The notes beneath the pieces were generated by a model, which searched no databases, was not told where the DNA came from, and saw only the letters and a program-made list of their open reading frames with translations. The translations under genes and the position numbers were made by a program. Shown here piece after piece: positions 23,077-37,244 of a stretch of DNA of 64,000 bases. Positions within the stretch are counted from its first letter, which is position 1; each line of letters opens with the position of its first letter. Origin of the DNA: Actinomycetales bacterium (GTDB lineage: Bacteria > Actinomycetota > Actinomycetes > S36-B12); assembly GCA_018970025.1 (NCBI GenBank), contig JAGWXF010000003.1, positions 62,001 through 126,000 on the forward strand. The letters are read 5' to 3'.

Positions 23077-24258
23077 TCAGGACTCCGGCAGGCCGATGCT
23101 CGCCCGGGCCACCTGCATGCCCCGGGCGACGGCGCCCATGATCGCCGCGCTGCCGTGCAGTGACGACTCATGCACCTTGATCGGATACGGGGCAACGCGC
23201 GCGAGCTCCCGGCGCACGCCATCGAGGACGAACGGCACCGACCCGATGCGCCCGGCGAGCACCACGAACTGCGGATCGACCAGGACGCAGACGGCGAGGA
23301 TGGCGCGGGCGATGAGCTCGGCCTCCTGCTGCGCCGTCGCGACCGCCGCCGGCTCCGCCTCCTGCAGGGCCCGCAGGAATGCCTCCAGGGTTGGGCGGCC
23401 GGCCGCGAGTCCGCGCTCGGTCCGCTCGGCCCGGTAGCGCGCGAGCAGCCCGCTGAGCCCGGCCTGCGACTCCAGGGCCCCGATCCGCGCCACTGGGCCG
23501 ACCAGCCGCGCTGACCCCAGCGGCAGGTAGCCCGCCTCGCCGGCAGCACCCCGACTGCCGCGCAGCAGCTCCCCGTTCAGCATCAGGCCCATGCCGACAC
23601 CGGTGTCGACGAGCAGGAAGACGAAGTCATCGGCACCCCGGGCGATGCCGTAGCGATGCTCCGCGATCGCGGCGAGGTTCACGTCATTCTCGAAGGCGAT
23701 GGACGCATCGAACCGCCTGCCGAGCAGGCGATGCAAGGCACGGTCGTCCAGTCCGGGCACGTTCTGAGCCAGCGCCCGGTGGTCGGAGCCGGGCTCCAGG
23801 ATGCCCGGAGCTGAGATGGAGATGGCTCGCACTGCATCAGCGTCAACCCCCGCCTGCTGCAGGACCTCGTCCACCAGCGCGGCCGTCCCGGAGATGAGCC
23901 GATCCGGCCGGGGCAGCGGGGCATGCTGCCGGGCGCGCTGGTCGCCGGTGATGTCGGCGATGACGGCACCGATGCCGTCGCCGTCGAAGGCCAGGGCCAG
24001 CACCATGCCCGCCTCCGGGTTCAGCTGCACCAAGGAGGCCGGCCGGCCGATCGAACCGGTGCGGATACCGGCCTCGCGCAGCAGGCCGGTCGACAGCAGC
24101 TCATCGACCAGGGCATTCACGGTCGGCTTGCTCAGGCCGGTGGCCGCCGCGATCGCGACCCGGCTGACCGGCTCCGCCTCGGCTGAGATCGCTGCCAGGA
24201 TGCGGCTCTCGTTGTGCTGCCGGACGAACACATGCCGATCGACATGCGCGTCGGTCAT
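23077..24258 (-). CDS. ROK-family transcriptional repressor of the adjacent sugar-type cluster
   Basis: A 393-aa protein with an N-terminal winged helix (PVSRVAIAAATGLSKPTVNALVDELLSTGLL) and a ROK domain (FENDVNLAAIAEHRYG, VDTGVGMGLMLNGELLRGSRG, GEAGYLPLG). The kinase catalytic features are partly lost, as expected for a regulator. Its ATG overlaps the stop of the inner permease gene by four bases, so it is co-transcribed with the transporter. It probably represses that operon and the divergent enzyme operon, with release by a sugar derivative. The ligand is unknown. Confidence 0.88.
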   Translation of the reverse strand: MTDAHVDRHVFVRQHNESRILAAISAEAEPVSRVAIAAATGLSKPTVNALVDELLSTGLLREAGIRTGSIGRPASLVQLNPEAGMVLALAFDGDGIGAVIADITGDQRARQHAPLPRPDRLISGTAALVDEVLQQAGVDADAVRAISISAPGILEPGSDHRALAQNVPGLDDRALHRLLGRRFDASIAFENDVNLAAIAEHRYGIARGADDFVFLLVDTGVGMGLMLNGELLRGSRGAAGEAGYLPLGSARLVGPVARIGALESQAGLSGLLARYRAERTERGLAAGRPTLEAFLRALQEAEPAAVATAQQEAELIARAILAVCVLVDPQFVVLAGRIGSVPFVLDGVRRELARVAPYPIKVHESSLHGSAAIMGAVARGMQVARASIGLPES

Positions 24259-25100
24259 CCCTTGACCGCGCCCTGGCTCAGCCCGCGAACCAGCCGGCCC
24301 TGCATCACCACGGTCAGCAGGGCGATCGGGACGATCGCCAGGCTCGAGGCCGCGGCAAGGGGGCCCCAGTCCAGGGTGCGGGCGCTGACGAATCCGGAGA
24401 TGAACACCGGCAGGGTCTTGGTCGCCTCACTGCCGAGGACCACCGGCAGCAGGAACTCATTCCAGGCCAGCAGCCCGACGAACAGGCCGGTCGCGACGAC
24501 CCCGGGCAGGGCCAGGGGGAACACCACCGTGCGGAAGACCTGCGCCCCCGACGCGCCGTCGATGACGGCGGCCTCCTCCAGCTCCATCGGGATGCCCTGG
24601 AAGTACGGGGTCATGATCCAGATCGCGAAGGGGAGGTTGACCATCGCGTAGAGCACGATCAGCATGGGCATCTTGCCCAGCAGCCCCACCCCCGCCAGCA
24701 CGTCGTAGAGCGGCACCACCAGCACGACACCGGGCATGGCCCGCAGCAGGATCAGCGAGACCTCCAGCGGCCGGCGACCGCGGAAGCGGGGTGCGCGTGC
24801 CAGCGCGTAGGCCGCCAGCGAGCCGATCAGCAGCGCCACGATGGTGGACCCAGCCGTCACGATGATGGTGTTGGCCATCACCCGGATGAAGGTGGGATCC
24901 TCGAACAGCTGCGAGTAGTTCTTCCAGGTCGGGGTGAAGCCCACGATGACCGGCGGCAGGCGGAAGGTATCGACGCGGTCCTTGATCGACGTGGAGACCG
25001 TCCAGAAGATCGGGAACAGCATGACGGCCGAGGTCACCGTCAGCACCGCATACAGCCCGATCGAGCCCAGCGGGCTGCGACCGCCCGCCCGACGCGCCAT
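24255..25100 (-). CDS. ABC transporter permease, carbohydrate CUT1 family (MalG type)
   Basis: A 281-aa inner-membrane protein with six predicted helices and the EAA loop EEAAVIDGASGAQVFRTVVFPLALPG, which contacts the ATPase. It pairs with the preceding permease (ATGA overlap) and the lipoprotein upstream. The start is ATG 25100; the 556-aa ORF in the track is read-through from the other permease. No ATPase is encoded in the cluster, as is common for actinobacterial sugar importers that share an MsiK-type ATPase. Confidence 0.92.
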   Translation of the reverse strand: MARRAGGRSPLGSIGLYAVLTVTSAVMLFPIFWTVSTSIKDRVDTFRLPPVIVGFTPTWKNYSQLFEDPTFIRVMANTIIVTAGSTIVALLIGSLAAYALARAPRFRGRRPLEVSLILLRAMPGVVLVVPLYDVLAGVGLLGKMPMLIVLYAMVNLPFAIWIMTPYFQGIPMELEEAAVIDGASGAQVFRTVVFPLALPGVVATGLFVGLLAWNEFLLPVVLGSEATKTLPVFISGFVSARTLDWGPLAAASSLAIVPIALLTVVMQGRLVRGLSQGAVKG

Positions 25101-26137
25101 CACGACCGCTCCGCCAGTGTCGACACCCGGCGCCACAGGAAGTAGATCGGCAGCGTGATCAGCATGAGCACCACGCCGATGGCCGAGGCGCGGCTGGTCG
25201 CCAGGAAGGTGAAGGCGACGTTGTAGTCGAGCATGCTCACCGTCTGCGTCGCGGTGCCCGGCCCGCCCCTGGTGAGGATGAACACCACGTCGAAGATCTT
25301 GAAGCCGTCGATCACCCGGATCATCAGGGTGACCAGGATGACCGGCATCAGAGCCGGCAGGGTGACATGCCGGAAGACCTGCCATCCCGATGCCCCGTCG
25401 ACCCGGGCGGCCTCCTCCGGCGAGGTCGGCAGGGAGGCAAGGCCTGCGGTGAGCATCAGGACCACGAGCGAGAGCGCCTGCCAGCTGTCGACGAAGGTCA
25501 CCGCGAACAGCGCCGGCCAGGGGGCACCGAGCCAGTCGACGCCCGGCAGGCCGAGCACCCCCAGCCACCAGTTGATGATGCCCAGCTCGGGGTTGTACAT
25601 GAACCGCCACATCAGGCCCACGGCCACCGGGGTCAGCAGCATCGGCACCAGGATCGCGGTGCGGAAGACGCCGCGGCCGCGCATCTGCTGATGCAGCAGC
25701 AGGGCCAGGGCCATGCCGAGCGGGAACTGCAGGGCCAGGCCGAGGGCGAGGATCAGCAGGGTGACGACCAGGGCCTCGCCGAAGACCGGGCTCAGCACAT
25801 CGGTGCGATAGTTGTCCAGGCCGACGAAGGACGGCTCCATCGGGAAGCCCAGGGTCTTGTCGTAGAACGACAGGTAGATCCCGACCCCGAGCGGCAGGAA
25901 GAACATCGGGACGAGGAAGACCCACGTGGGCAGGGTCAGCAGGACGGCACTGCGTGCCCGACGCTCGGCGATCCAGTTGCGCGCCGGCGGCGCGCCGGCC
26001 AGCCGTCCATTCGACGCCACCGGGCCCGCCGACGAGACCGAGCCCGCCGACGAGACCGAGCCCGCCGACGAGACCGAGCCCGCCGAGGGGGCGCCAGATG
26101 CTGGCGCCCCCTCCGCGGTCATCGCCTGCTCGGCCAT
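25100..26137 (-). CDS. ABC transporter permease, carbohydrate CUT1 family (MalF type)
   Basis: A 345-aa permease with the EAA loop EEAARVDGASGWQVFRHVTLPALMP and six to seven membrane segments starting at VLLTLPTWVFLVPMFFLPLG. The first 55 residues are a low-complexity cytoplasmic tail built on SVSSAG units encoded by an 18-bp tandem repeat. It is translationally coupled to the MalG-type gene and lies 63 bp after the binding-protein gene. Confidence 0.92.
   Translation of the reverse strand: MAEQAMTAEGAPASGAPSAGSVSSAGSVSSAGSVSSAGPVASNGRLAGAPPARNWIAERRARSAVLLTLPTWVFLVPMFFLPLGVGIYLSFYDKTLGFPMEPSFVGLDNYRTDVLSPVFGEALVVTLLILALGLALQFPLGMALALLLHQQMRGRGVFRTAILVPMLLTPVAVGLMWRFMYNPELGIINWWLGVLGLPGVDWLGAPWPALFAVTFVDSWQALSLVVLMLTAGLASLPTSPEEAARVDGASGWQVFRHVTLPALMPVILVTLMIRVIDGFKIFDVVFILTRGGPGTATQTVSMLDYNVAFTFLATSRASAIGVVLMLITLPIYFLWRRVSTLAERS
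26024..26090. repeat. 18-bp tandem repeat in the 5' end of the MalF-type permease gene
   Basis: GCCCGCCGACGAGACCGA is repeated at 26024, 26042 and 26060 with a partial fourth copy. On the minus strand it encodes repeating SVSSAG, the disordered N-terminal tail. It preserves frame (18 bp). Confidence 0.9.
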
Positions 26138-26200
26138 GTCACTGCCATGTGCCCGAGGCCATGGGTACCCACGCTCCTTCGCTTACCAGTGCTCCTCCGC

Positions 26201-27532
26201 CTACTTGGGCTCCTTCGCCAGCACCGGCTCCAGTGCCGACTGCATGGCATCGAGGCCCTCCTGGACGGGCACCTCGCCGGAGAGGATCTTGGCGAGGTTG
26301 TCGGAGGCCACCTTGTCGAACTCCGGCCACACCACGATCTGCGGGTAGGTGTTCACCACCGCATCCGGGCTGATGTTGAGCAGCTTCAGGTACGGGTACT
26401 TCGCCTGCAGGGCAGGGTCATCGATGATCGAGATCCGGCCGATGGCGGCAGCGCCGTTCTCCAGCAGGGTCTTGGCATTGGACTTGCCCAGCATGTACTC
26501 CAGGAACTTCCAGCCGCACTGCGGGTTGGGCGAATCCGACGGGATGCCGATATTCCAGCCCGCCAGCTCGACCGCATTGACCTTGCCCGCCGGCAGCGGC
26601 GCCACCGCGATGCTCGCCGCATTCTTGGACGAGGTCGGGTCGAACACCCCGGCCGCATAGCCGGAGTACTGCACCATCTGGCCGATGTCGGAGCCGACGA
26701 ACTGCAGGGTCACGTCGTCACCGGTCGCGCCCAGGGCACCGCTCGGGGATGACGCCAGCAGGCTCTTGTAGTACTCGGTCGCCGCTGCGGCCTCCGGGGT
26801 GTTGACGGTCGGCTTGAAGTCGGAGTCGTAGAGCGCCCCGCCGAACGACCAGACCAGCTGCATCCACCACCAGGTGGTGTTCGGGCCGAAGCCCATCATC
26901 TGGCCGGCTGCCTCGCCGGACTTCTGGATCGCCTCGGCATTCGCCTTGTACTCGTCCCAGGTGGTTGCCGGCTTCAGGCCCAGCTTGTCGTAGATGTCCT
27001 GCCGGTACCACTGGATGAACGGCTCGGTCGACAGCATCAGGCCGTACTTGGTGCCGTCGAAGTCGCCGTAGTTCTGCAGCGACGGCGGGATGTCGCTGAT
27101 GTCGTACTCCGCCGAGTTCGCCGCCCAGTCGCCGATATCGGTCAGCGCCCCGGCCTTGGCGAATGCCGCCAGGAAGGTGTTGTCGAACTGGACCACGTCG
27201 AAGGCGCCCTGCTTGGACTGGATCGACAGCAGTGCCTTCTGGTGCGCGGTGCCGTACTCCACCTCGCTGACGTTCACGTTGATGCCGGTTGCCTCGGTGA
27301 ACGCCGGGATCATCGCCTTCATCGCATCAGCGCTCGGGCTGGGGATGAGGAAGACGTTGATCGCCTCGCAGGTCGCCTCGGCAGGCGCGCTCGCTGCGCT
27401 GGACCCTGCTGGGGCGGACTCGGCCGCGGCCGACCCCGAGGTGCTGGTGCTGCTGCTCGAGCATGCGGCCAGGGCGAGACCGGCGACTGCCAGGCCCGCG
27501 ATGGCTGCGATGCTGCGTCGCGTCATCGTCAT
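26201..27532 (-). CDS. Sugar-type ABC transporter substrate-binding lipoprotein
   Basis: A 443-aa extracytoplasmic binding protein. The lipoprotein signal ends in LAVAGLALAACSSS (lipobox Cys at about 24), followed by a Ser/Ala-rich linker and a SBP_bac_1 fold (AFTEATGINVNVSEVEYG, FDVVQFDN, WYRQDIYDKLGLKPATTWDEY). The WWWMQLVWSFGG stretch suggests an aromatic-lined carbohydrate site. It is the first gene of the minus-strand transport operon and is divergent from the enzyme operon. The ligand is inferred to be an amino-sugar or aminocyclitol derivative from the neighbours. Confidence 0.92.
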   Translation of the reverse strand: MTMTRRSIAAIAGLAVAGLALAACSSSSTSTSGSAAAESAPAGSSAASAPAEATCEAINVFLIPSPSADAMKAMIPAFTEATGINVNVSEVEYGTAHQKALLSIQSKQGAFDVVQFDNTFLAAFAKAGALTDIGDWAANSAEYDISDIPPSLQNYGDFDGTKYGLMLSTEPFIQWYRQDIYDKLGLKPATTWDEYKANAEAIQKSGEAAGQMMGFGPNTTWWWMQLVWSFGGALYDSDFKPTVNTPEAAAATEYYKSLLASSPSGALGATGDDVTLQFVGSDIGQMVQYSGYAAGVFDPTSSKNAASIAVAPLPAGKVNAVELAGWNIGIPSDSPNPQCGWKFLEYMLGKSNAKTLLENGAAAIGRISIIDDPALQAKYPYLKLLNISPDAVVNTYPQIVVWPEFDKVASDNLAKILSGEVPVQEGLDAMQSALEPVLAKEPK

Positions 27533-27579
27533 GCAGGACTCCTTTCGGCAGGCCGATCGGCCGCCTGGTGGTTGACGAG

Positions 27580-27650
27580 CAGGTTAGTACGCAATATTGA
27601 CGAAGTCACGCGCTTTGTAAATACTGTTCGCCAATTCACGGCAGCGGTGG
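27580..27650. promoter_or_regulatory. Divergent promoter/operator region of the sugar-type cluster
   Basis: The 129-bp gap between the binding-protein and PIG-L genes contains an AT-richer patch (TACGCAATATTGACG, TTTGTAAATACTGTTCGCC, AATTC) in otherwise GC-rich sequence. Both operons must be transcribed from here, and the ROK regulator is expected to bind here. I could not define a clear palindrome or confident -35/-10 pairs. Confidence 0.45.
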
Positions 27651-27661
27651 AGGGAGCAGGG

Positions 27662-28576
27662 GTGAGCGATGGGCGCAGCAGCCTTGACCGGCTCGCGGGG
27701 CGCCCGATCCTGGCCTTCGTCGCCCATGCCGACGACTGCGCCCTGTTCATCGGCGGCACGATCCGGCTCCTCGCCGACGCCGGGTGCCCCATCACCCTGG
27801 TCCGGTTCACCGACGACTGCACTGACTCCGACGGACTGGACCCGTCCGAGACCATCCGGCGCAATGACCGAGAGCTGCAGGAAGCGTGCGAGATCCTCGG
27901 CATCCGGCACCGGCACGACCTGGGCTACCCGTCCGACACCCTCGGCGACGTGCGCCGCGGCGAGCTGCGCGAGCATGCGATCCGGCTGATCCGCCAGGTG
28001 CGGCCCTATGCCGTGCTGACCTTCGACCCGTACGCGCGATTCGGCGAGGACAACCAGGATCACATCCGCATCGCCCAGGAGGTCGACGAGGCGTTCTGGA
28101 CCTCGATGTTCGACAAGCACCATCCTGAGCACCTCCAGGCCGGCCTCGCACCCCACGGGGTCGTCGAGCGCTGGTACTTCGGGCGACGGGTGACCGAGCC
28201 GACGGACGTGATCGACATCAGCGCGGCGATGCCCGCCAAGACCGAGGCAGCCGTCGCGCACCGCACCATGATGGGCAACCTGATGCGCCAGCTCACCCTG
28301 ATGGGCCGGACCGCCGAGGTCGACAGCGACTGGCTCGGCGGCGTGCTCGGCGACCAGGATGCGATCGTCCGGCGGATGGTCGGCCACTCGACGACGGAGG
28401 CCTTCCGGGTCGTGCGCTTCAGCGGGTTCGCCGCCCTGTTCGACGATGCGCCCCGGCATCGCACCATTCCAGATGCAGCCAGGACAGATGCAGCCAGGAC
28501 AGATGCAGCCAGCACGCCCGATGCCAGCCCTCGCCCGCCGACCAGCGAGCGCCCCGACCTGAATGGATCCGCATGA
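27662..28576 (+). CDS. PIG-L (LmbE-like) family deacetylase
   Basis: A 304-aa protein with the PIG-L zinc motif in altered form, AHADDCALFIGG instead of PHPDDE; the His and both Asp are kept. The third ligand region is FGEDNQDHIRIAQEV. Family members remove N-acetyl groups from GlcNAc-containing molecules such as mycothiol precursors. The start GTG 27662 follows GGAGGGAGCAGG; the track start at 27242 lies inside the divergent gene. It heads the plus-strand operon. Its last 45 residues are low-complexity, with a 15-bp tandem repeat. The substrate is probably the imported N-acylated compound. Confidence 0.85.
   Translation: MSDGRSSLDRLAGRPILAFVAHADDCALFIGGTIRLLADAGCPITLVRFTDDCTDSDGLDPSETIRRNDRELQEACEILGIRHRHDLGYPSDTLGDVRRGELREHAIRLIRQVRPYAVLTFDPYARFGEDNQDHIRIAQEVDEAFWTSMFDKHHPEHLQAGLAPHGVVERWYFGRRVTEPTDVIDISAAMPAKTEAAVAHRTMMGNLMRQLTLMGRTAEVDSDWLGGVLGDQDAIVRRMVGHSTTEAFRVVRFSGFAALFDDAPRHRTIPDAARTDAARTDAASTPDASPRPPTSERPDLNGSA
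28471..28515. repeat. 15-bp tandem repeat in the 3' end of the PIG-L gene
   Basis: AGATGCAGCCAGGAC is present twice exactly (28471, 28486) and once with one change (28501), encoding TDAAR units. A further Ala/Ser/Thr/Asn-rich repeat follows in the 5' end of the next gene at about 28590-28640. Confidence 0.85.
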
Positions 28577-29661
28577 GCAGCCCGGACCACGCCAGCGCCC
28601 ACGCCAGCACCAACGCCAGCGCCAGCACCAACGCCGCCGACCCGTCAGCCTTCGTCTCCCGGCACGGTTTCGCCACCACGTACGGCCACGGCGTTGCCAC
28701 CGGGGTCGGCGACCGACCAGGCTCGGTCGTCGCGGTCTGCGATCCGGAGGTCTGGCAGTGGTTCGGGCCTGCCTTCGGCCCGGCACCCGACCTGCGCATC
28801 GACGCGGTCGAGCTCTCCCCCGCCCACCTCGACGAGCTCGCCGGCTCCGTTCCGGCAGACGCCACGATCATCGGGATCGGCGGCGGGGTCGCGATGGACG
28901 TCGCGAAGTGGGTGCACTGGCGCCGCGGACTGCCGTTGATCCAGGTGCCGACCCTGCCGAGCGTCAACGCCTGCTTCACCCGGATGACGGCACTGCGCGA
29001 CGGCGGCCGCGTGCGCTACGAGGGCAACGCCATCCCCGAGCAGGTCATCGTCGACTTCGACATCTTCCAGGCCGCGCCCCCGGCGCTGGTGCGCGCCGGG
29101 ATCGGCGACGTGCTCTCCTGCCATACCGCCCTGTGGGACTGGCGGGTCGGCGTGGCTGCCGGCTTCGACCCGGCCTGGGATGACGACAGCGCCGGCTCGT
29201 CGATGCGCTACATCGATGCCCTGCGACGGGCCGCGCCCGGCATCCACGACGTGACCGATGCCGGCATCGCGTCGCTGATGGAGCTGCATCGCGAGATCGG
29301 CTGGCGCTGCCACGAGATGCAGCATGCGCGCTTCGAGGAGGGCAGCGAGCACTTCTTCGCCTACTGCTTCGAGGAGGTCACCGGGCGGACGATCCTGCAT
29401 GGCGAGCTGGTCAGCGTGGGCGTGCTCATCATGTCCGCCATCCAGGGCAACAATTCGTGGCTGCCGCGGTCGATCGTCCACTCGGCCGGCACGCGGCATC
29501 GTCCGCAGGACCTCGCGATCACCTGGGACGAGATCGATGCCACCCTGGATCACCTCCGGGCCTTCACCACGGCCGGCGGCTATTGGCACTCGGTGATCCA
29601 GGAGGGGTTCGACGTCGGCCGGGCGAAGGAGCAGGCGCGTGCCGCCCTCGACTTCGACTGA
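28573..29661 (+). CDS. AraM/glycerol-1-phosphate dehydrogenase-like enzyme, first paralogue
   Basis: A 362-aa member of the iron/zinc alcohol dehydrogenase and dehydroquinate-synthase superfamily. It has the NAD-binding IGIGGGVAMDVAKW, VPTLPSVNA, and metal-ligand regions AGIGDVLSC, EEGSEHFFAYCFEE and LHGELVSVGV. AraM/EgsA enzymes reduce dihydroxyacetone phosphate; the substrate here is unknown. The ATG overlaps the PIG-L stop. The N-terminal 25 residues are an Ala/Ser/Thr/Asn repeat. A clear paralogue lies three genes downstream. Confidence 0.8.
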   Translation: MSSPDHASAHASTNASASTNAADPSAFVSRHGFATTYGHGVATGVGDRPGSVVAVCDPEVWQWFGPAFGPAPDLRIDAVELSPAHLDELAGSVPADATIIGIGGGVAMDVAKWVHWRRGLPLIQVPTLPSVNACFTRMTALRDGGRVRYEGNAIPEQVIVDFDIFQAAPPALVRAGIGDVLSCHTALWDWRVGVAAGFDPAWDDDSAGSSMRYIDALRRAAPGIHDVTDAGIASLMELHREIGWRCHEMQHARFEEGSEHFFAYCFEEVTGRTILHGELVSVGVLIMSAIQGNNSWLPRSIVHSAGTRHRPQDLAITWDEIDATLDHLRAFTTAGGYWHSVIQEGFDVGRAKEQARAALDFD

Positions 29662-30673
29662 TCTCCGCCAGCCAGGCTCGGTACCCGTCGCCGGCATCGA
29701 CCTCGGCGGCACCAAGGTTCGCGGGGCCATCGCCGACCCCAGCGGTCGCATCATCGCCGAGTCCACCGAGCCCACCCGCGCCAGCGGGGCACGCGACGTC
29801 ATCACCCAGATCGCCGGGATGGTGCGCTCGCTCGGTGCGCAGTGCGGGGTCCGGCCCGAGCTGCTCGCCGTCGGCTCCCCCGGGGTCGTCGACGAGCGCG
29901 GGCGATTCCAGCTGTCCTTCAATATCGACGAGCTCGCCGATCTCTCCCTGGCCTCCGAGATCGCGGCCCACGTCGGCGTGCCGGTGATCGTCGACAACGA
30001 CGCGAACATGGCCGCGCTCGGCGAGCAATGGCAGGGGCTGGCCCGAGGCTGCCGCGACTTCGTCGTGCTGTCGGTCGGTACCGGCCTGGGCATGGGCCTG
30101 GTCATCGACGGGCGGCTGCATCGGGGCTCGCGGGGCTTCGCCGGGGAGATCGCCTACCTGCCGATCGGCGAGGACCCGAGCGTTGCGCAGGCCCGTCGAT
30201 TCGGGGCCCTGGAGTGGGCCGCCGGCACGGCCGGCATCCGGCGTGCGCTGATGGCGTCCCTGGACTCCGGGCAATACCCGGCGACCGGGCTGGCACCCGA
30301 GGCCGACGTCCATGCCGTCTTCGAGGCCGCCCGCGCCGGCGACCAGCTCGGCATGGCCCTGGTGGAGCACGAGGCTGGCCTGCTCGCCCACGCGATCCTC
30401 GCCGTCGCCGCGGTCATCGACCCCGAGCTGGTGATCATCACCGGCGGCATCGGCGCGGACCCGCTGCTCATCGACCGGCTGCGGGCCCGGCTGGACGACA
30501 TCAGCCCGCACCGGATCCGCGTCGAGCGCTCGATCCTGGGCGATCGATGCGGGGTCATGGGGGCGCTCGCGGCCGCCCGGGCCACCGCCGCGCAACCCAG
30601 GGCCCATGAACCCCAGGCCCATGAACCCCAGGCCCATGAACCCGATTTCCAGGAAGGGCACTCCCATGTCTGA
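29639..30673 (+). CDS. ROK-family sugar kinase-like protein
   Basis: A 344-aa ROK protein. It has the phosphate-binding AGIDLGGTKVRG, a catalytic Asp candidate in VDNDANMAALGE, and LSVGTGLGMGLVIDG. The cysteine-rich zinc motif typical of ROK kinases is missing (ALEWAAGTAG in its place), and the EIGH motif is EIAYLPIG. Its central segment closely resembles the ROK regulator at 23-24 kb (RGSRG, AGE and YLP.G shared). There is no helix-turn-helix, so a kinase role is still preferred. GTG 29639 overlaps the previous gene by 23 bp. The C-terminus carries QAHEP repeats. Confidence 0.8.
   Translation: MPPSTSTDLRQPGSVPVAGIDLGGTKVRGAIADPSGRIIAESTEPTRASGARDVITQIAGMVRSLGAQCGVRPELLAVGSPGVVDERGRFQLSFNIDELADLSLASEIAAHVGVPVIVDNDANMAALGEQWQGLARGCRDFVVLSVGTGLGMGLVIDGRLHRGSRGFAGEIAYLPIGEDPSVAQARRFGALEWAAGTAGIRRALMASLDSGQYPATGLAPEADVHAVFEAARAGDQLGMALVEHEAGLLAHAILAVAAVIDPELVIITGGIGADPLLIDRLRARLDDISPHRIRVERSILGDRCGVMGALAAARATAAQPRAHEPQAHEPQAHEPDFQEGHSHV
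30597..30645. repeat. 15-bp tandem repeat at the end of the ROK kinase gene
   Basis: CCCATGAACCCCAGG-type units of 15 bp occur three to four times, encoding QAHEP units just before the stop. The DegT gene starts eight bases before the kinase stop codon, directly after this array. Confidence 0.88.
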
Positions 30674-31907
30674 GCTCGCCGCCCTCGGCGGGACGCCGAT
30701 CCGCAGCGCCCCCTACCCGGCCTGGCCGCACTACGACGACAGCGAGCGCGACGGCCTGCTGCGCGTCCTGGAGAGCCGCAACTGGTGGTCGAGCCAGGGC
30801 GTCGAGGTCCGGGCATTCGAGCAGGAGTGGGCCGCCTTCACCGGTGCCCCGCATGCCGTCGCGATGACGAACGGCACCCACACCCTGGAGGCGGCCCTCC
30901 TCGCCACCGGCATCGGCGCAGGCGATGAGGTGATCGTCCCCGACTGGTCGTTCTTCGCGACCATCGGCGCAGTGCTCGCCGTGAACGCCGTCCCGGTCAT
31001 CGTCGACGTCGATCCGCGCACGGGCACGATGGACCCAGCCCTGGCCGAGGCCGCCATCACCGGGCGAACGAGGGCGATCCTGGTGGTGCATGTCTGCGGC
31101 AGCGTCGCCGATATGGACGCCATCACGGCCCTGGCCCAGCGACATGGCCTGCGGGTGATCGAGGACTGCGCCCACGCCCACGGCAGTACCTGGCACGGGG
31201 TGCATGCCGGCCTCCTCGGCGACGCCGGCTCGTTCTCCTTCCAGGCCAGCAAGCTGATGACTGCCGGCGAGGGCGGTGCCGTGATCACCCGGCATGACGA
31301 CGTGGCCGCGCTGCTGGCGTCCTACGTCAGCTGCGGGCGCGACCCCGGCACCTGGTACTACCGGCACTTCCGGCTCGGCGAGAACTGGCGGATGACCGAA
31401 TGGCAGGGCGCCGTCCTGCGCTGCCAGCTGGCCCGCTTCCCGCAGCAGCAGGCCAACCGTGCCGCCCATGCCGACCTACTCAATGCCGAGCTCGCCCGCA
31501 TCCCCGGTGTCACGCCCCAGGGCCGGCTGCCCGGCTGCGACAGCCAGGGCAACTACTGCTACGTGGTCATGGTCGACCCGGACGAGTTCGGCGCATCGCG
31601 CGACCACGTCCGCACGGCACTGCTGGCCGAGGGCATCCCGCTGACGACGTCCTATCCGCCGCTGCACGCACTGGAGCTGTTCAGCGACCCGGCCGGCCTG
31701 GCCCCTCGCATCAAGGACCGCTCAGCCCTGCCCGACTACGCGCGCCAGTCCTTCCCGGTCACCGAGCGCCTGGCCGCCACCTCGCTGTGGTTCACCACCT
31801 CGGTCCTCAACGGCACCGATGAGGACGCCCTCGACGTCGTCCGTGCCATGGAGAAAGTGCATCGCCTTCGCGGGCAGCTGGCGGAGGTGGATGCAGTTGC
31901 GTACTGA
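30666..31907 (+). CDS. DegT/DnrJ/EryC1/StrS-family aminotransferase
   Basis: A 413-aa PLP-dependent sugar or cyclitol aminotransferase. It has AMTNGTHTLEAALLATGIG, VIEDCAHAHGSTW, and the PLP lysine in SFSFQASKLMTAGEGG. The YSPALHALELF-type substrate loop is here SYPPLHALELF. Family members transfer amino groups to keto-sugars or to scyllo-inosose (StsC-like) and work reversibly. The start ATG 30666 overlaps the ROK kinase end. The paired Gfo/Idh dehydrogenase two genes downstream could make or consume its keto substrate, as in kanosamine or aminocyclitol pathways. Confidence 0.9.
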   Translation: MSELAALGGTPIRSAPYPAWPHYDDSERDGLLRVLESRNWWSSQGVEVRAFEQEWAAFTGAPHAVAMTNGTHTLEAALLATGIGAGDEVIVPDWSFFATIGAVLAVNAVPVIVDVDPRTGTMDPALAEAAITGRTRAILVVHVCGSVADMDAITALAQRHGLRVIEDCAHAHGSTWHGVHAGLLGDAGSFSFQASKLMTAGEGGAVITRHDDVAALLASYVSCGRDPGTWYYRHFRLGENWRMTEWQGAVLRCQLARFPQQQANRAAHADLLNAELARIPGVTPQGRLPGCDSQGNYCYVVMVDPDEFGASRDHVRTALLAEGIPLTTSYPPLHALELFSDPAGLAPRIKDRSALPDYARQSFPVTERLAATSLWFTTSVLNGTDEDALDVVRAMEKVHRLRGQLAEVDAVAY

Positions 31908-33009
31908 TCAGCAGGCCGACGTGATCGGCGAGCCATTCGACACCAAGCACGCCGACGTGATCGGCGAGCCATTCGACACCGTCCACGCCGACGCCATCGA
32001 GGTCCTTGCCGACCTCGGACCGACGGCCATCATCGCGGCCAATGACCCGCCATGGGCGGCCATCAGCACCGCGCTCGCGGACCGCGGCATCACCGGCCTG
32101 GGCGTTGTGCTCGCGACCAGCATGGAGGAGGCCGACCTCGCGCAGCTTGCCGCCGCCCAAGACGAAGCGATCGAGCGGGGCGCCACCTGCGTGATCGGGG
32201 TCGGCGGCGGCACGGCCATCGACACGGCCAAGTACCTGGCCTGGGCACGAGGCCTGCCGGCCGTCTACATCCCCACTATCGCCTCGGTCGATGCCACCTT
32301 CACCGATGCGGTCGGCATCCGCCGGGACCGCCGCGTGGCGTACATCGGGCAGGTGCGGCCCCGCGAGGTGGTGATCGACCTGCCCCTGATCACCTCGGCA
32401 CCGCCACGGCTCAATCGCGGCGGCATCGGCGACATCCTGTCCTGCCATACCGGGCTGTTCGACTGGCGGCTGGCGGCTGACGCGGGCCTGGGCGCACCCT
32501 GGGATGAGCGGCTCGCCGCCCTCGGGCGCACCCTGCTCGACGAGCTCGAGGCCGCGTCCGCGGATATCCATGCGGCATCGGCGGCCGGCGTCGGCTTCCT
32601 GCTGGACGCCTACCGCAGGATCGGCGCCGCCTGCGCGGCCGCCGGCCACTCGCGCTTCGAGGAGGGCAGTGAGCACTTCCTCGGCTACGCCCTCGAGGAG
32701 GTCACCGGCGAGCACTACGTCCACGGCGAGCTCATCAGCATGTGCGTGGTCGCGATGAGCACCATCCAGGGCAATGACCCCGAGCGAGCCGCGCGGATCA
32801 TCCGGGCAGCGGGCACCAGCGCCCACCCGTCATCACTCGGCCTGGACCAGCCCACCGTGGTCGGCGCGCTCATGGGCCTGGGCGCCTATGTCAAGGCCGA
32901 GGGCCTCGACGACTGCATCGCGACCATGGCGACCATCAGCGAGCCGACGGCCCAGGCCGCGTGGGCTGCCATCGACGCTCTGCCGGGTCACGCAAGGAGC
33001 GCATCATGA
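31891..33009 (+). CDS. AraM/glycerol-1-phosphate dehydrogenase-like enzyme, second paralogue
   Basis: A 372-aa protein aligned over most of its length with the enzyme at 28.6-29.7 kb: GVGGGTAIDTAKY, PTIASVDA, GGIGDILSCHTGLFDWR, FEEGSEHFLGYALEEVTG and VHGELISM are all shared with small changes. The same metal-ligand positions are kept. The N-terminus has two perfect copies of a 36-bp unit (ADVIGEPFDT). I chose ATG 31891 (track start 31819); TTG 31897 is possible. It overlaps the aminotransferase stop by 17 bp. It may act on a different hydroxyl from its paralogue, or form a hetero-oligomer with it. Confidence 0.8.
   Translation: MQLRTDQQADVIGEPFDTKHADVIGEPFDTVHADAIEVLADLGPTAIIAANDPPWAAISTALADRGITGLGVVLATSMEEADLAQLAAAQDEAIERGATCVIGVGGGTAIDTAKYLAWARGLPAVYIPTIASVDATFTDAVGIRRDRRVAYIGQVRPREVVIDLPLITSAPPRLNRGGIGDILSCHTGLFDWRLAADAGLGAPWDERLAALGRTLLDELEAASADIHAASAAGVGFLLDAYRRIGAACAAAGHSRFEEGSEHFLGYALEEVTGEHYVHGELISMCVVAMSTIQGNDPERAARIIRAAGTSAHPSSLGLDQPTVVGALMGLGAYVKAEGLDDCIATMATISEPTAQAAWAAIDALPGHARSAS
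31915..31986. repeat. 36-bp tandem duplication in the 5' end of the second AraM-like gene
   Basis: Positions 31915-31950 and 31951-31986 are identical except for the last two codons (AAGCAC versus GTCCAC). The frame is kept, encoding two 12-residue units before the Rossmann-like domain. Confidence 0.93.
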
Positions 33010-34124
33010 CCGCCACCGGCCAGCGCGAGGACGAGCGCGTGCAGATCGCGGTCATCGGCGGCGCCTTCGCCGGAACGCTGCATGCCGAGGCGATCAGCCT
33101 GACCACCACCGCCAGGGTGAGCGCCGGCGTCTCGCGCTCTGCGCAGACCCGGGATGCCTTCGCTGCCCGATGGGACGTCCCCGCCTATCCGACGCTGGAG
33201 GCCCTCCTGGCGGACGTCACGGCAGGGGTCGTGGCGTGCGATGCGGTATCCCTGGCGGTGCCCAATCACCTGCACCGACCGCTGACCGAGCTGGCGGCCG
33301 CGCACGAGCTGTCGGTGATCTGCGAGAAGCCCCTGGCCCCCACCTATGCCGATGCCGAGGCGATGGTGCGGGCCTGCCAGGAGGCCGGCGTGCACCTGCT
33401 CTACGCCGAGCAGCTGTGCTTCGCCCCCCGCTACCGGCGGGTGCAGCAGCTGATCGCCGCGGGATCCTTCGGCGACCTGGTGCAGCTCCAGCACTGGGAG
33501 CGGCACGGCGGCCCGCATGCGTCGTGGTTCTACGACCCGGTGCAGTCGGGCGGCGGCGTGCTGCTGGACATGGGCTGTCATGGCATCGGCGTCGCCCGCT
33601 GGCTGAAGGGCGATATTCCGGTCGTCGGGGTCAGCGCCCAGCTCGGCACGTTCGTCCATCATGAGCACCCGGTCGAGGATCACTCCCTGGTCACCCTGCG
33701 CTTCGCCGATGGCACCATCGCGGTCATCAACTCCTCCTGGGCAGCGCCGGGCGGGATCGACGAGCGGCTGGAGGTCCTGGGCACGGCAGGTCACGTGATG
33801 GCCGACCTCGCCCGCGGGCAGTCCCTGCTCGCCTACAGCGACGCCGGCTTCGATGCCACCGCCGAGAAGTCGGTGCAGCAGACGGGCCTGGCCTGGATCG
33901 CCCATGACGAGGCCTGGACGTGGGGCTGGCATGGCGAGTTCGCCCATTTCGCGGACGTCCTCGCCGGTCGTGCCGAGCCGCTGCTCACCGGCGCCGACGG
34001 CCTGGAGATCCTCGGCATCGTGAGTGCCGCCTACGTGGCCGCCGCCGAGCATCGCGTGGTGACACCCCCCTGGCCGACCGGCGATCACCTGCTGGTGCAG
34101 CCCTGGCTCGACCGGCGCAGGTGA
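33006..34124 (+). CDS. Gfo/Idh/MocA-family NAD(P)-dependent dehydrogenase
   Basis: A 372-aa two-domain oxidoreductase. It has the N-terminal Rossmann segment AVIGGAFAGTLHAEAI, the hallmark CEKPLAPTYADAEAM, and the C-terminal GGGVLLDMGCHG motif with the active-site His. Members oxidise a sugar or inositol hydroxyl to a ketone, or the reverse. MocA itself acts in rhizopine (methyl-inosamine) catabolism. The ATG overlaps the previous stop by four bases. With the DegT aminotransferase it forms a plausible ketone-amine pair. Confidence 0.9.
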   Translation: MTATGQREDERVQIAVIGGAFAGTLHAEAISLTTTARVSAGVSRSAQTRDAFAARWDVPAYPTLEALLADVTAGVVACDAVSLAVPNHLHRPLTELAAAHELSVICEKPLAPTYADAEAMVRACQEAGVHLLYAEQLCFAPRYRRVQQLIAAGSFGDLVQLQHWERHGGPHASWFYDPVQSGGGVLLDMGCHGIGVARWLKGDIPVVGVSAQLGTFVHHEHPVEDHSLVTLRFADGTIAVINSSWAAPGGIDERLEVLGTAGHVMADLARGQSLLAYSDAGFDATAEKSVQQTGLAWIAHDEAWTWGWHGEFAHFADVLAGRAEPLLTGADGLEILGIVSAAYVAAAEHRVVTPPWPTGDHLLVQPWLDRRR

Positions 34125-35182
34125 GCCAGCCCAGCGCCCCGGCCGGCACCGTGATGCTGGACGAGATCCGGCAGCAGGCGCGGCTCGCCGCCGACTGGGC
34201 CGGCGCCGGCGGGTACCGGGTCGATCACATCGCGCACGCGGTGGCGTCCTACGCCCCAGCATCGGTGACCCTCATCGCTCGCGGCACCAGCGACAACGCG
34301 GCCGGGTATGCGAAATACCTGCTGGAGATCATGGGCGGCTATGTCGTCAGCAGCGCCTCCCCCTCTGCCGTCACCCTCTACGGCGCCAAGCCCCGGCAGG
34401 CACGGTCGCTGTGCATTGCGGTGAGCCAGTCGGGCCAGTCGCCTGACCTGCTGCGGGCCATGTCGGCCATGCGCGAGGCCGGGAGCCTGGGCATCGCGGT
34501 GACGAATGATCCAGCCGCCCCCCTGGCCGTGCAGGCCGACTTCGTGGTCGACCTCGCCGCCGGCGTCGAGCATGCCGTGGCCGCCACCAAGACCTTCACC
34601 TGCGAGCTGCTCGCGCTGCTCGACCTGGCCACCGCCATCTGCGGCACCCAGGCACCCGAGCGCGCCGGCATCGCCGGCGCCATCGCCTCAGTGATCGCCC
34701 CGCACGCGGATCTCGACGATGCCGCCCGCCTGCTCGGATCCGCGCTGGCCAGCGCCGGCCACCTGCTGGTCGTCAGCCGGGGTGCCAGCACCCCGATCGC
34801 CCACGAGGGGGCGCTGAAGATCATGGAGACCGTGGGGCTGCCGGCGCTCAGCTACAGTGCCGCCGACCTCGAGCACGGCCCGATCGCCTGCGTGCACGCG
34901 GGAACCCCGGTGATCGTGATCGACTCCGCCGGCCCGGCAGCCGGCTCGCTGGCCCACGTCATCGCGCGGCTGGTCGACCTCGGTGCCGAGGTCATCCAGG
35001 TCGGGTCCGGCGATGCGGCCCCCGGCATCCGAGCGCACATCCCCGTTCCGCGGCTCGATCCGCTCGTCGCGCCCATCGCCGAGGCCATCCCGCTGCAGCT
35101 GCTGGCCCACCGCCTGGCAACCGCGATGGGCCACGACCCCGATCAGCCGCCGGGCCTGACGAAGGTCACCCGCACGTCATAG
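34121..35182 (+). CDS. SIS-domain amino-sugar isomerase/deaminase (GlmS C-terminal or AgaS-like)
   Basis: A 353-aa protein with two SIS domains: ARGTSDNAAGYAKY, VSQSGQSPD, AATKTFTCEL, then HEGALKIMETVGLPA and ADLEHGPIA, and a KVTRT tail like GlmS. There is no glutaminase domain, so it resembles the isomerase half of GlmS or the SIS-type glucosamine-6-phosphate deaminases (NagB-II/AgaS). The GTG at 34121 overlaps the Gfo/Idh stop; the track start at 33920 lies inside that gene. It ends the seven-gene coupled operon and points strongly to an amino-sugar phosphate intermediate. Confidence 0.88.
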   Translation: MSQPSAPAGTVMLDEIRQQARLAADWAGAGGYRVDHIAHAVASYAPASVTLIARGTSDNAAGYAKYLLEIMGGYVVSSASPSAVTLYGAKPRQARSLCIAVSQSGQSPDLLRAMSAMREAGSLGIAVTNDPAAPLAVQADFVVDLAAGVEHAVAATKTFTCELLALLDLATAICGTQAPERAGIAGAIASVIAPHADLDDAARLLGSALASAGHLLVVSRGASTPIAHEGALKIMETVGLPALSYSAADLEHGPIACVHAGTPVIVIDSAGPAAGSLAHVIARLVDLGAEVIQVGSGDAAPGIRAHIPVPRLDPLVAPIAEAIPLQLLAHRLATAMGHDPDQPPGLTKVTRTS

Positions 35183-35196
35183 CCGGATGGCCGTGG

Positions 35197-35991
35197 CTAC
35201 TGGGGAGCGAGCGTGCCGGAGAAGATCTGCCAGGCGAGCAGGGACTTCGCAACCAGGCTCAGAATGATGTAGGCCCGCTCCCCGCGCATGTAGTCGGCCC
35301 ACTTGCCGATCTGCTTGTACTGCAGCCACTGCACGATCGCGAAGCAGTTGAAGAAGATGAACAGCGAGATGATGATCCCGTAGACGAAGCCCGGCGTCTG
35401 CACGTCGCTGGTCGACCCGGGGGCGATCACGAAGAACACCACGATGATCCACGGCACGATCCCGGTCATGCAGCCGAAGATGAACGGCAGGAAGCCGCCG
35501 CTGCCCGGCTTCTCGTACTTCTCCTGCACCCAGCCGAAGAAGATCATCGAGGCGTTGACCCCGAAGATCGCGATCAGCGCCGCGACGTCGGTGATGCCGA
35601 CGATCTGGCAGATCAGGACGATCATCACCGAGGAGCTGATCGAGTACTCGACCCAGCGGAAGTAGTTGTGATGCTCCACCAGCCCCGCCGAGTAGCGCTG
35701 GTAGAACGGCGGTACCGAGACGATGAAGTGGAAGAAGGCCGACAGCAGGAAGAACAGTGCGACGCCCCACCCGATGCGCGAATCGAGCAGGGTCACCGGC
35801 TCGGACAGCGGCGTGCCGGGCGGGCCGGCCATGTAGCTGGCCGTGATCGGCAGGGTGAAGTCGTTGGCGAGTGCGAGGACGGCGATCGCCTGCACGAGGT
35901 GGGCGAAGCCGGCGATGATGTTCCAGCGGCGCAGGCGCTGCGCGGTGATCGGGCTGGGCGTCGAGACGGCAGGACTATCGGCAATGGCCAT
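35197..35991 (-). CDS. heR: Heliorhodopsin
   Basis: A 264-aa seven-helix retinal protein of the heliorhodopsin family. It has FRWVEYSISSSVMIVLI with the counterion Glu115, FIFGCMTGIVPWI, and the final helix LSLVAKSLLAWQIFSGTL with the retinal Schiff-base Lys249. His31 and His88 are also present. All four positions are offset by exactly eight from the key residues of HeR-48C12 (E107, K241, H23, H80). Start MAIADSPAV (ATG 35991) gives the normal family length. Heliorhodopsins are light-sensing rather than classical pumps, with the N-terminus inside. No retinal or carotenoid synthesis gene is in the window. It converges on the SIS gene and diverges from DUF2332. Confidence 0.95.
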   Translation of the reverse strand: MAIADSPAVSTPSPITAQRLRRWNIIAGFAHLVQAIAVLALANDFTLPITASYMAGPPGTPLSEPVTLLDSRIGWGVALFFLLSAFFHFIVSVPPFYQRYSAGLVEHHNYFRWVEYSISSSVMIVLICQIVGITDVAALIAIFGVNASMIFFGWVQEKYEKPGSGGFLPFIFGCMTGIVPWIIVVFFVIAPGSTSDVQTPGFVYGIIISLFIFFNCFAIVQWLQYKQIGKWADYMRGERAYIILSLVAKSLLAWQIFSGTLAPQ

Positions 35992-36092
35992 AAGGCATGG
36001 TCCCACGCCCGCCTGGCCAGCGCCTGCCGACACCCCGATAGCCACTCCTGACGCGCATCCGCTCACCGACCTGCATCTGGCAGCATGCGGTC

Positions 36093-37244
36093 ATGCCTGG
36101 CCGCCCTGGCGACGATGACATCGTCCCGATCGATGCCCAACTCGCCTGGCAGGAGGAGTACTGCAGGTCCGCGGGGTCGCCCACCGCAGCCCTGCTGCTG
36201 CAGGCCGTCCGCGACGACCTCGCCGCCGCGGGCGTGAGCCTCGAGGTGCTGCCCGAGCGGACGAGATTCGGCGACCTGCTCGGCCTTCGCATCATGGCCG
36301 TCCTGCACCGACTGGCCATCGAGCGCCAGGCGCCGGCCATCGCCATCCGCGTGCCGACCCTGGGCGGGATCGCGCCGGATGCCAGCGCGAATCCAGCCCG
36401 GGAGCGCATCAGATTCCAGCAGGCCGTGATCGAGACCATCGCCGGGCATCTCGGTCAGGTCCGCCAGGCCATCGCCGAGGTACCGCAGACCAATGAGGTG
36501 GGCCGCAGCGTCCCGCTGCGCATCGCCCTCAGCCGGATCGCAGCCCGCCACGACTCGGGGCATCAGGAAGCTCTCGGCGAGCGACCGCGCATGCCCGTCC
36601 GACTGCTCGAGATCGGCGCCTCCGCAGGGCTCAACCTCCGGGCCGATCACCTGCCCGGGGATCCCAGCCTGGAGGCGGGCCCGATGCCCGCCATCGTCGA
36701 GCGGCTCGGCTGCGACCTGCACCCCATCGACGCCACCACGACCGCAGGGCGCGCCCGGCTGACCAGCTACGTGTGGCTGGACGATGTGGAGCGCTACGAG
36801 CGCCTGCGGCAGGCCTTCGAGGTCGCGGCCCGTGTGCCCGCCACGGTGATCCGCCAGGATGCCGTCGAGTTCGTCCGCGGCCTGCGCCTGCGCGAGGGCA
36901 CCATCACCGTGCTCTGGCACAGCGCGATGTGGATCTACCTGCCACCGAAGGAGCGCCAGGGCGTCGAGCGGCAGATCCTGCGCCTGGCATCACAGGCCAG
37001 CGCCAGCATGCCCCTGTGGCATGTCTGGTGGGAGTGGTCGGCCGACGCGGCGCCGACCCAGGGCACATCCAGGCAGGGCCCATCCACCCAGGGCCCATCC
37101 ACCCAGGGCCCATCTCCCCAGGGCTCGACCGTCCCGGAGACGTTCGCCCTGGGTGCCCGAGCCTGGTGCGGGACGGACGCCGACGGCGTACCCGTCACGC
37201 TCGCCACCGGCATGTCGCATGGCCGGCAGGTCCGACTCGCGTGA
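36093..37244 (+). CDS. DUF2332 family protein
   Basis: A 383-aa cytoplasmic protein. It has AWQEEYCRSAGSPTAALLLQAV, LLEIGASAGLNLRADH (Rossmann-like, resembling a methyltransferase site I), and TVLWHSAMWIYLP, as in DUF2332. The enzymatic role is unknown; a methyltransferase-like fold is an inference. A 15-bp tandem repeat near the 3' end encodes QGPST units inserted before the final conserved segment. It is divergent from heliorhodopsin across 101 bp. Confidence 0.83.
   Translation: MPGRPGDDDIVPIDAQLAWQEEYCRSAGSPTAALLLQAVRDDLAAAGVSLEVLPERTRFGDLLGLRIMAVLHRLAIERQAPAIAIRVPTLGGIAPDASANPARERIRFQQAVIETIAGHLGQVRQAIAEVPQTNEVGRSVPLRIALSRIAARHDSGHQEALGERPRMPVRLLEIGASAGLNLRADHLPGDPSLEAGPMPAIVERLGCDLHPIDATTTAGRARLTSYVWLDDVERYERLRQAFEVAARVPATVIRQDAVEFVRGLRLREGTITVLWHSAMWIYLPPKERQGVERQILRLASQASASMPLWHVWWEWSADAAPTQGTSRQGPSTQGPSTQGPSPQGSTVPETFALGARAWCGTDADGVPVTLATGMSHGRQVRLA
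37059..37124. repeat. 15-bp tandem repeat in the DUF2332 gene
   Basis: Units of CAGGGCCCATCCACC occur at 37059 (diverged), 37074, 37089 and 37104 (diverged), with a partial fifth at 37119. They encode TQGPS units in the middle of the C-terminal part of the protein and keep the frame. Confidence 0.9.

Follow-up and report, generated by a model that had tools for sequence, protein, structure and literature searches.

A heliorhodopsin of the HeR-48C12 clade in a draft actinobacterial genome: gene neighbourhood and retinal supply

The best studied relative of the protein described here is HeR-48C12, a heliorhodopsin (HeR) of an uncultured freshwater actinobacterium with structures in the Protein Data Bank (6su3, 6su4, 6uh3). 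Heliorhodopsins are defined by an E-S-L motif in TM3 and an SxxxK motif in TM7 (PMC9601134), and 13 tested members absorb at 530–556 nm (PMC7807009). A sensor or regulator role has been described for some of them (PMC9529153; PMC11109279): AbHeR of the actinobacterium IMCC26103 binds and activates glutamine synthetase (PMC9529153), and OcHeR is linked with the ABC transporter OmrDE (PMC11109279). Experimental support for such a role exists in few HeRs, namely those with adjacent operon partners. A viral HeR transports protons (PMC9448325). With regard to retinal supply, Aurantimicrobium minutum makes retinal without blh, by a pathway left unidentified in that study (PMC7734400). Its congener Aurantimicrobium photophilum has a putative heR (PMC8591293) and is amenable to genome editing (PMC11577799). 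Most genomes of the Luna-1 subcluster contain carotenoid genes and lack blh, and actinorhodopsin and heliorhodopsin often occur in them together (PMC12422013), while “Ca. Actinomarinales” have both rhodopsins but lack retinal genes (PMC7771536). A side opening in the HeR structures has been proposed to admit outside retinal (PMC9385722).

The gene under study is located in the window, that is, the whole analysed stretch of 64,000 nucleotides, which has a GC content of 70%. The first-pass annotation had described it as a heliorhodopsin with H31, H88, E115, and K249 at a constant offset of eight from HeR-48C12, and both statements were borne out. The protein scored 335.7 bits against the Pfam family Heliorhodopsin (PF18761; E 1.8e-100, cut-off 26.7) and 346.2 bits against the NCBIfam model NF038020 (cut-off 100), and a chance match is therefore excluded. 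Residues 16–263 aligned without gaps to residues 8–255 of HeR-48C12, with 67% identity over 248 columns. The residues named include the Schiff-base lysine (K249), the counter-ion (E115), and the cavity histidines (H31 and H88); both defining motifs are present, as E115/S119/L126 in TM3 and S245–K249 in TM7. Further positions of HeR-48C12 retained in the window protein are S84, Y100, N109, R112, W113, Y116, S120, N146, E157, and S245. Across 83 aligned HeRs, the window protein included, Y100, R112, W113, E115, E157, E238, S245, and K249 are invariant, and S84, N109, Y116, and S120 nearly so. The interval that had been assigned to the gene does hold its open reading frame, which had been reported without a strand; the frame lies on the minus strand (Table 1), and translation of the plus strand gives a meaningless hydrophilic frame.

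Table 1. Features of the heliorhodopsin locus, in window coordinates.
Feature	Coordinates	Strand	Basis and remarks
Remaining genes of the convergent operon	27647..34124	+	Pfam, NCBIfam, gene calls; context, outside the HeR unit
SIS-domain protein resembling sugar isomerases/deaminases, final gene of the convergent operon	34121..35182	+	PF01380
SIS (+) to HeR (-) gap, stop codons convergent	35183..35196	.	14 bp; gene calls, sequence
Heliorhodopsin (HeR), 264 aa	35197..35991	-	Start 35991, stop ending at 35197; PF18761, NF038020, residues, structure model
HeR–DUF2332 intergenic region (genes divergent)	35992..36092	.	101 bp; gene calls, sequence
DUF2332 protein, 383 aa, divergent neighbour	36093..37244	+	PF10094, 190.8 bits

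A structure was modelled with AlphaFold2 from an input of 58 HeRs, and the model had a mean pLDDT of 92.9. The ten best PDB matches to it were all heliorhodopsins; the TM scores were mostly 0.91–0.94 for the HeR-48C12 entries, 6su3 and 6su4 among them, against about 0.55 for type-1 rhodopsins. The predicted fold is thus the seven-helix fold of the HeR type. Eight Lys/Arg residues were counted on the N-terminal side and one on the opposite side; this charge count is an indication of the inverted topology with a cytoplasmic N-terminus. On the phylogenetic tree, the window HeR grouped with HeRs from the same bacterial family, within the actinobacterial clade to which HeR-48C12 also belongs, although the support of the fork holding it (93/91) was under the strict threshold. 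A viral origin was also considered and rejected, as the viral contigs yielded no close relative. Judged by its sequence, the window gene encodes a type-3 rhodopsin, an ordinary heliorhodopsin from the clade of freshwater actinobacteria; the family is a known one, to which the locus contributes a further close relative of a protein already studied in depth. The active-site residues are the same as in HeR-48C12, whereas the N-terminus is eight residues longer and about one third of the residues differ.

The same tree contained six HeRs in which leucine has jointly taken the place of the two cavity histidines (H23 and H80 by HeR-48C12 numbering). Two come from genomes of the window's order (L196 in G037 and L203 in G057), and four (L071, L074, L080, and L085) belong to Chloroflexota/Dehalococcoidia, and they form two separate, well-supported clades. 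Since the cavity histidines may accept the Schiff-base proton (PMC7807009), these six variants may have a different photocycle.

The flanking genes, a convergent amino-sugar operon and a divergent DUF2332 gene, are both present as had been annotated. The operon comprises seven genes, the SIS gene included, and ends 14 bp downstream of HeR. Its other products are a PIG-L deacetylase, two glycerol-1-phosphate-dehydrogenase/DHQ-synthase-like proteins, a ROK kinase, a DegT aminotransferase, and a Gfo/Idh/MocA dehydrogenase. All proteins of the operon fell under the NCBIfam cut-offs, including the SIS protein, for which the best match was NagB-II-like. An ABC sugar importer and a ROK repressor are arranged back to back with the operon (window 23077–35182), and the whole looks like a system for amino-sugar or aminocyclitol use by an unusual pathway. 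Because the upstream neighbour is divergent and the downstream operon convergent, HeR has no adjacent partner gene on its own strand and is probably transcribed alone. A simple scan for a sigma-70 consensus promoter in the HeR–DUF2332 intergenic region gave no hit.

Retinal genes had been noted as absent nearby, and this holds for the annotated genes around HeR. It had also been stated that retinal would have to be supplied by another part of the genome or by the surroundings, and the genome, a draft of 2.64 Mb in 39 contigs with a completeness of 89%, was searched for crtE/B/I/Y and blh. Carotenoid genes were found on another contig (C27), which encodes a crtE-like prenyl-diphosphate synthase, a CrtI-family desaturase (495.9 bits, cut-off 238.1), a crtB-like phytoene synthase under every CrtB equivalog cut-off, and two crtYc/Yd-like lycopene-cyclase half-proteins, one of which is under its cut-off. 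This set suffices on paper for beta-carotene, and the cyclase halves are possibly C50 cyclases (CrtYe/Yf). The beta-carotene part of the expected route is therefore found elsewhere in the genome, and the last step is not: family searches of the 89% complete genome returned neither a BCD/Blh gene nor an RPE65-type oxygenase (RPE65/diox1). A weak BCD was likewise rejected, as a family-specific profile built from ten relatives matched nothing in this genome at E<=10. As the draft is only 89% complete, the absence of Blh is not proven. In addition, contig C15 encodes a type-1 rhodopsin with the D-T-E and DxxxK motifs, the signature of a proton pump. A separate observation concerns the carotenoid cluster, where an MptA/MptB-type mannosyltransferase gene is located between crtI and crtB (L170:8726-10144, G000:C27). 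The extra membrane protein of that cluster (P0002) was considered as a candidate and rejected once it proved to be this mannosyltransferase.

The pattern recurs among the 59 related genomes compared, own genome included. HeR was present in 40 of them, type-1 rhodopsin in 37, BCD in 13, and RPE65 in 8, and 26 of the 40 HeR genomes had neither BCD nor RPE65. BCD was found in 13 of 37 pump-bearing genomes versus 0 of 22 pumpless ones (Fisher p = 0.001, indicative only, as shared ancestry is ignored). The corresponding comparison for HeR, 11 of 40 genomes with it versus 2 of 19 without, was not significant (p = 0.19, again ignoring shared ancestry). Nine genomes had HeR and no pump; BCD occurred in none of these nine and RPE65 in two. 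HeR thus persists in many genomes of the order in which beta-carotene is expected and no known retinal-forming enzyme was found, and in some pumpless ones, and the source of retinal therefore becomes a testable question shared with the published blh-less actinobacteria. Aurantimicrobium minutum and Luna-1 likewise combine rhodopsin and carotenoid genes without blh, but belong to a different order from the window organism. In view of these published cases, the present pattern is an extension of known examples to a further group rather than a new kind of case. We give even odds to the proposal that the actinobacteria of this order either form the retinal for HeR and the pump with a carotenoid cleavage enzyme related to neither Blh nor RPE65 or rely on captured retinal; in that case, selection on HeR would not depend on the known retinal synthesis of the cell itself. 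Within one genus (g2; G023:C53 and G032:C136), HeR and BCD were seen on one contig and the same strand, 17–20 kb apart.

One alternative account of the retinal data is that Blh is encoded in sequence that the draft lacks and that its apparent lack is an artefact. The completeness of 89% and the occurrence of BCD in 11 of the 35 same-family genomes leave room for this; however, the remaining 24 genomes have no BCD although most are more than 90% complete, and the empty family-specific profile also argues against it, so that we consider it unlikely. Another account, in which the window HeR is a non-functional or retinal-free relic, draws on the same missing enzyme and on one relative (G043, locus L205) that keeps an intact HeR in a 97% complete genome where phytoene synthase, lycopene cyclase, BCD, RPE65, and type-1 rhodopsin all gave no match. 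Nevertheless, the window protein retains every residue of importance to retinal binding and photochemistry, outside retinal could enter through the proposed side opening, and A. minutum demonstrates retinal formation without blh. A relic is thus very improbable.

A third explanation is that HeR acts together with its DUF2332 or amino-sugar neighbours and places them under light control. It draws on physical adjacency and from the regulation of adjacent operon genes by other HeRs (PMC9529153; PMC11109279), and the first-pass annotation had seen in the neighbourhood a possible clue to a light-signalling role and proposed the conservation of DUF2332 as a check. Both genes, however, are outside the HeR transcription unit, and a comparison of 86 distinct HeR loci, covering up to six genes on each side, showed that the DUF2332 and SIS neighbours recur at no other locus, each cluster consisting of the window alone. 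The DUF2332 family itself was found in only 13 of the 59 related genomes. Where the positions of both this gene and HeR were found in a genome other than the window's, they were on different contigs or tens of kilobases apart (27 and 92 kb in G020), and the DUF2332 loci of relatives had none of the window's flanking genes within 1.5 kb. None of the ten published HeR neighbour groups adjoins the window HeR, and neither DUF2332 nor amino-sugar genes are among those groups. Conservation was therefore not observed, the idea that these genes give a functional clue to HeR is not supported, and joint action with them is barely credible. Nor did other neighbours stand out. Clusters of neighbours at a fixed position held at most five of the 86 loci, reflecting synteny of close relatives; two larger clusters, of 18 and 15 loci, were spread over many positions, and their sequence starts point to proteins of the SDR and ABC-ATPase types. 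Among 82 immediate neighbours scanned against Pfam, which came from about half of the loci, no family occurred more than four times. A same-strand neighbour within 30 bp was present at 11 of the 74 HeR loci with both neighbours called; operon linkage, although reported for some HeRs (PMC11109279; PMC8612252), is therefore a minority pattern in the compared set. Genome context names no partner for HeR, the neighbours being poor candidates.

Taken together, we assign a probability of roughly 0.9 to the reading that the window gene is an ordinary HeR of the 48C12 clade, encoded by a solitary gene and having a sensor-type function inferred from its relatives, with a separate DTE pump and with retinal derived from the cell's own synthesis, an unassembled Blh, or uptake. 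By analogy with these relatives, K249 would hold retinal in a protonated Schiff base, E115 serving as the counter-ion, and green light would drive a slow photocycle with no ion pumping; since the viral HeR transports protons, the lack of transport is only presumed for the window protein. A conformational change on the cytoplasmic face might then modulate a partner protein whose gene lies at another place in the genome, and proton pumping would presumably be carried out by the separate DTE-type rhodopsin. Retinal may arise from the cell's own carotenoids through an unidentified enzyme, through a Blh encoded in the ~11% that the draft lacks, or by uptake from outside. The window HeR shares with its family, AbHeR included, the charged residues E157, K158, E160, K226, and K230 in the second and third cytoplasmic loops, which are widely conserved among HeRs and not diagnostic. 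Unlike AbHeR, it has no adjacent glutamine synthetase and no same-strand operon, and it lacks an operon partner of the kind found beside the experimentally supported regulators. Operon partners of other HeRs include glutamine synthetase, photolyase, and an ABC transporter. OcHeR belongs to the same family.

Two minor observations are added. Our literature search returned no mention of the DUF2332 family, and the window's DUF2332 protein contains LLEIGASAGLNLRAD, which by eye resembles motif I of SAM-dependent methyltransferases. Among the relatives, a broken second HeR copy (G006:C16:3289-3730) was observed about 7 kb from an intact HeR, as two overlapping pieces with one in-frame TGA.
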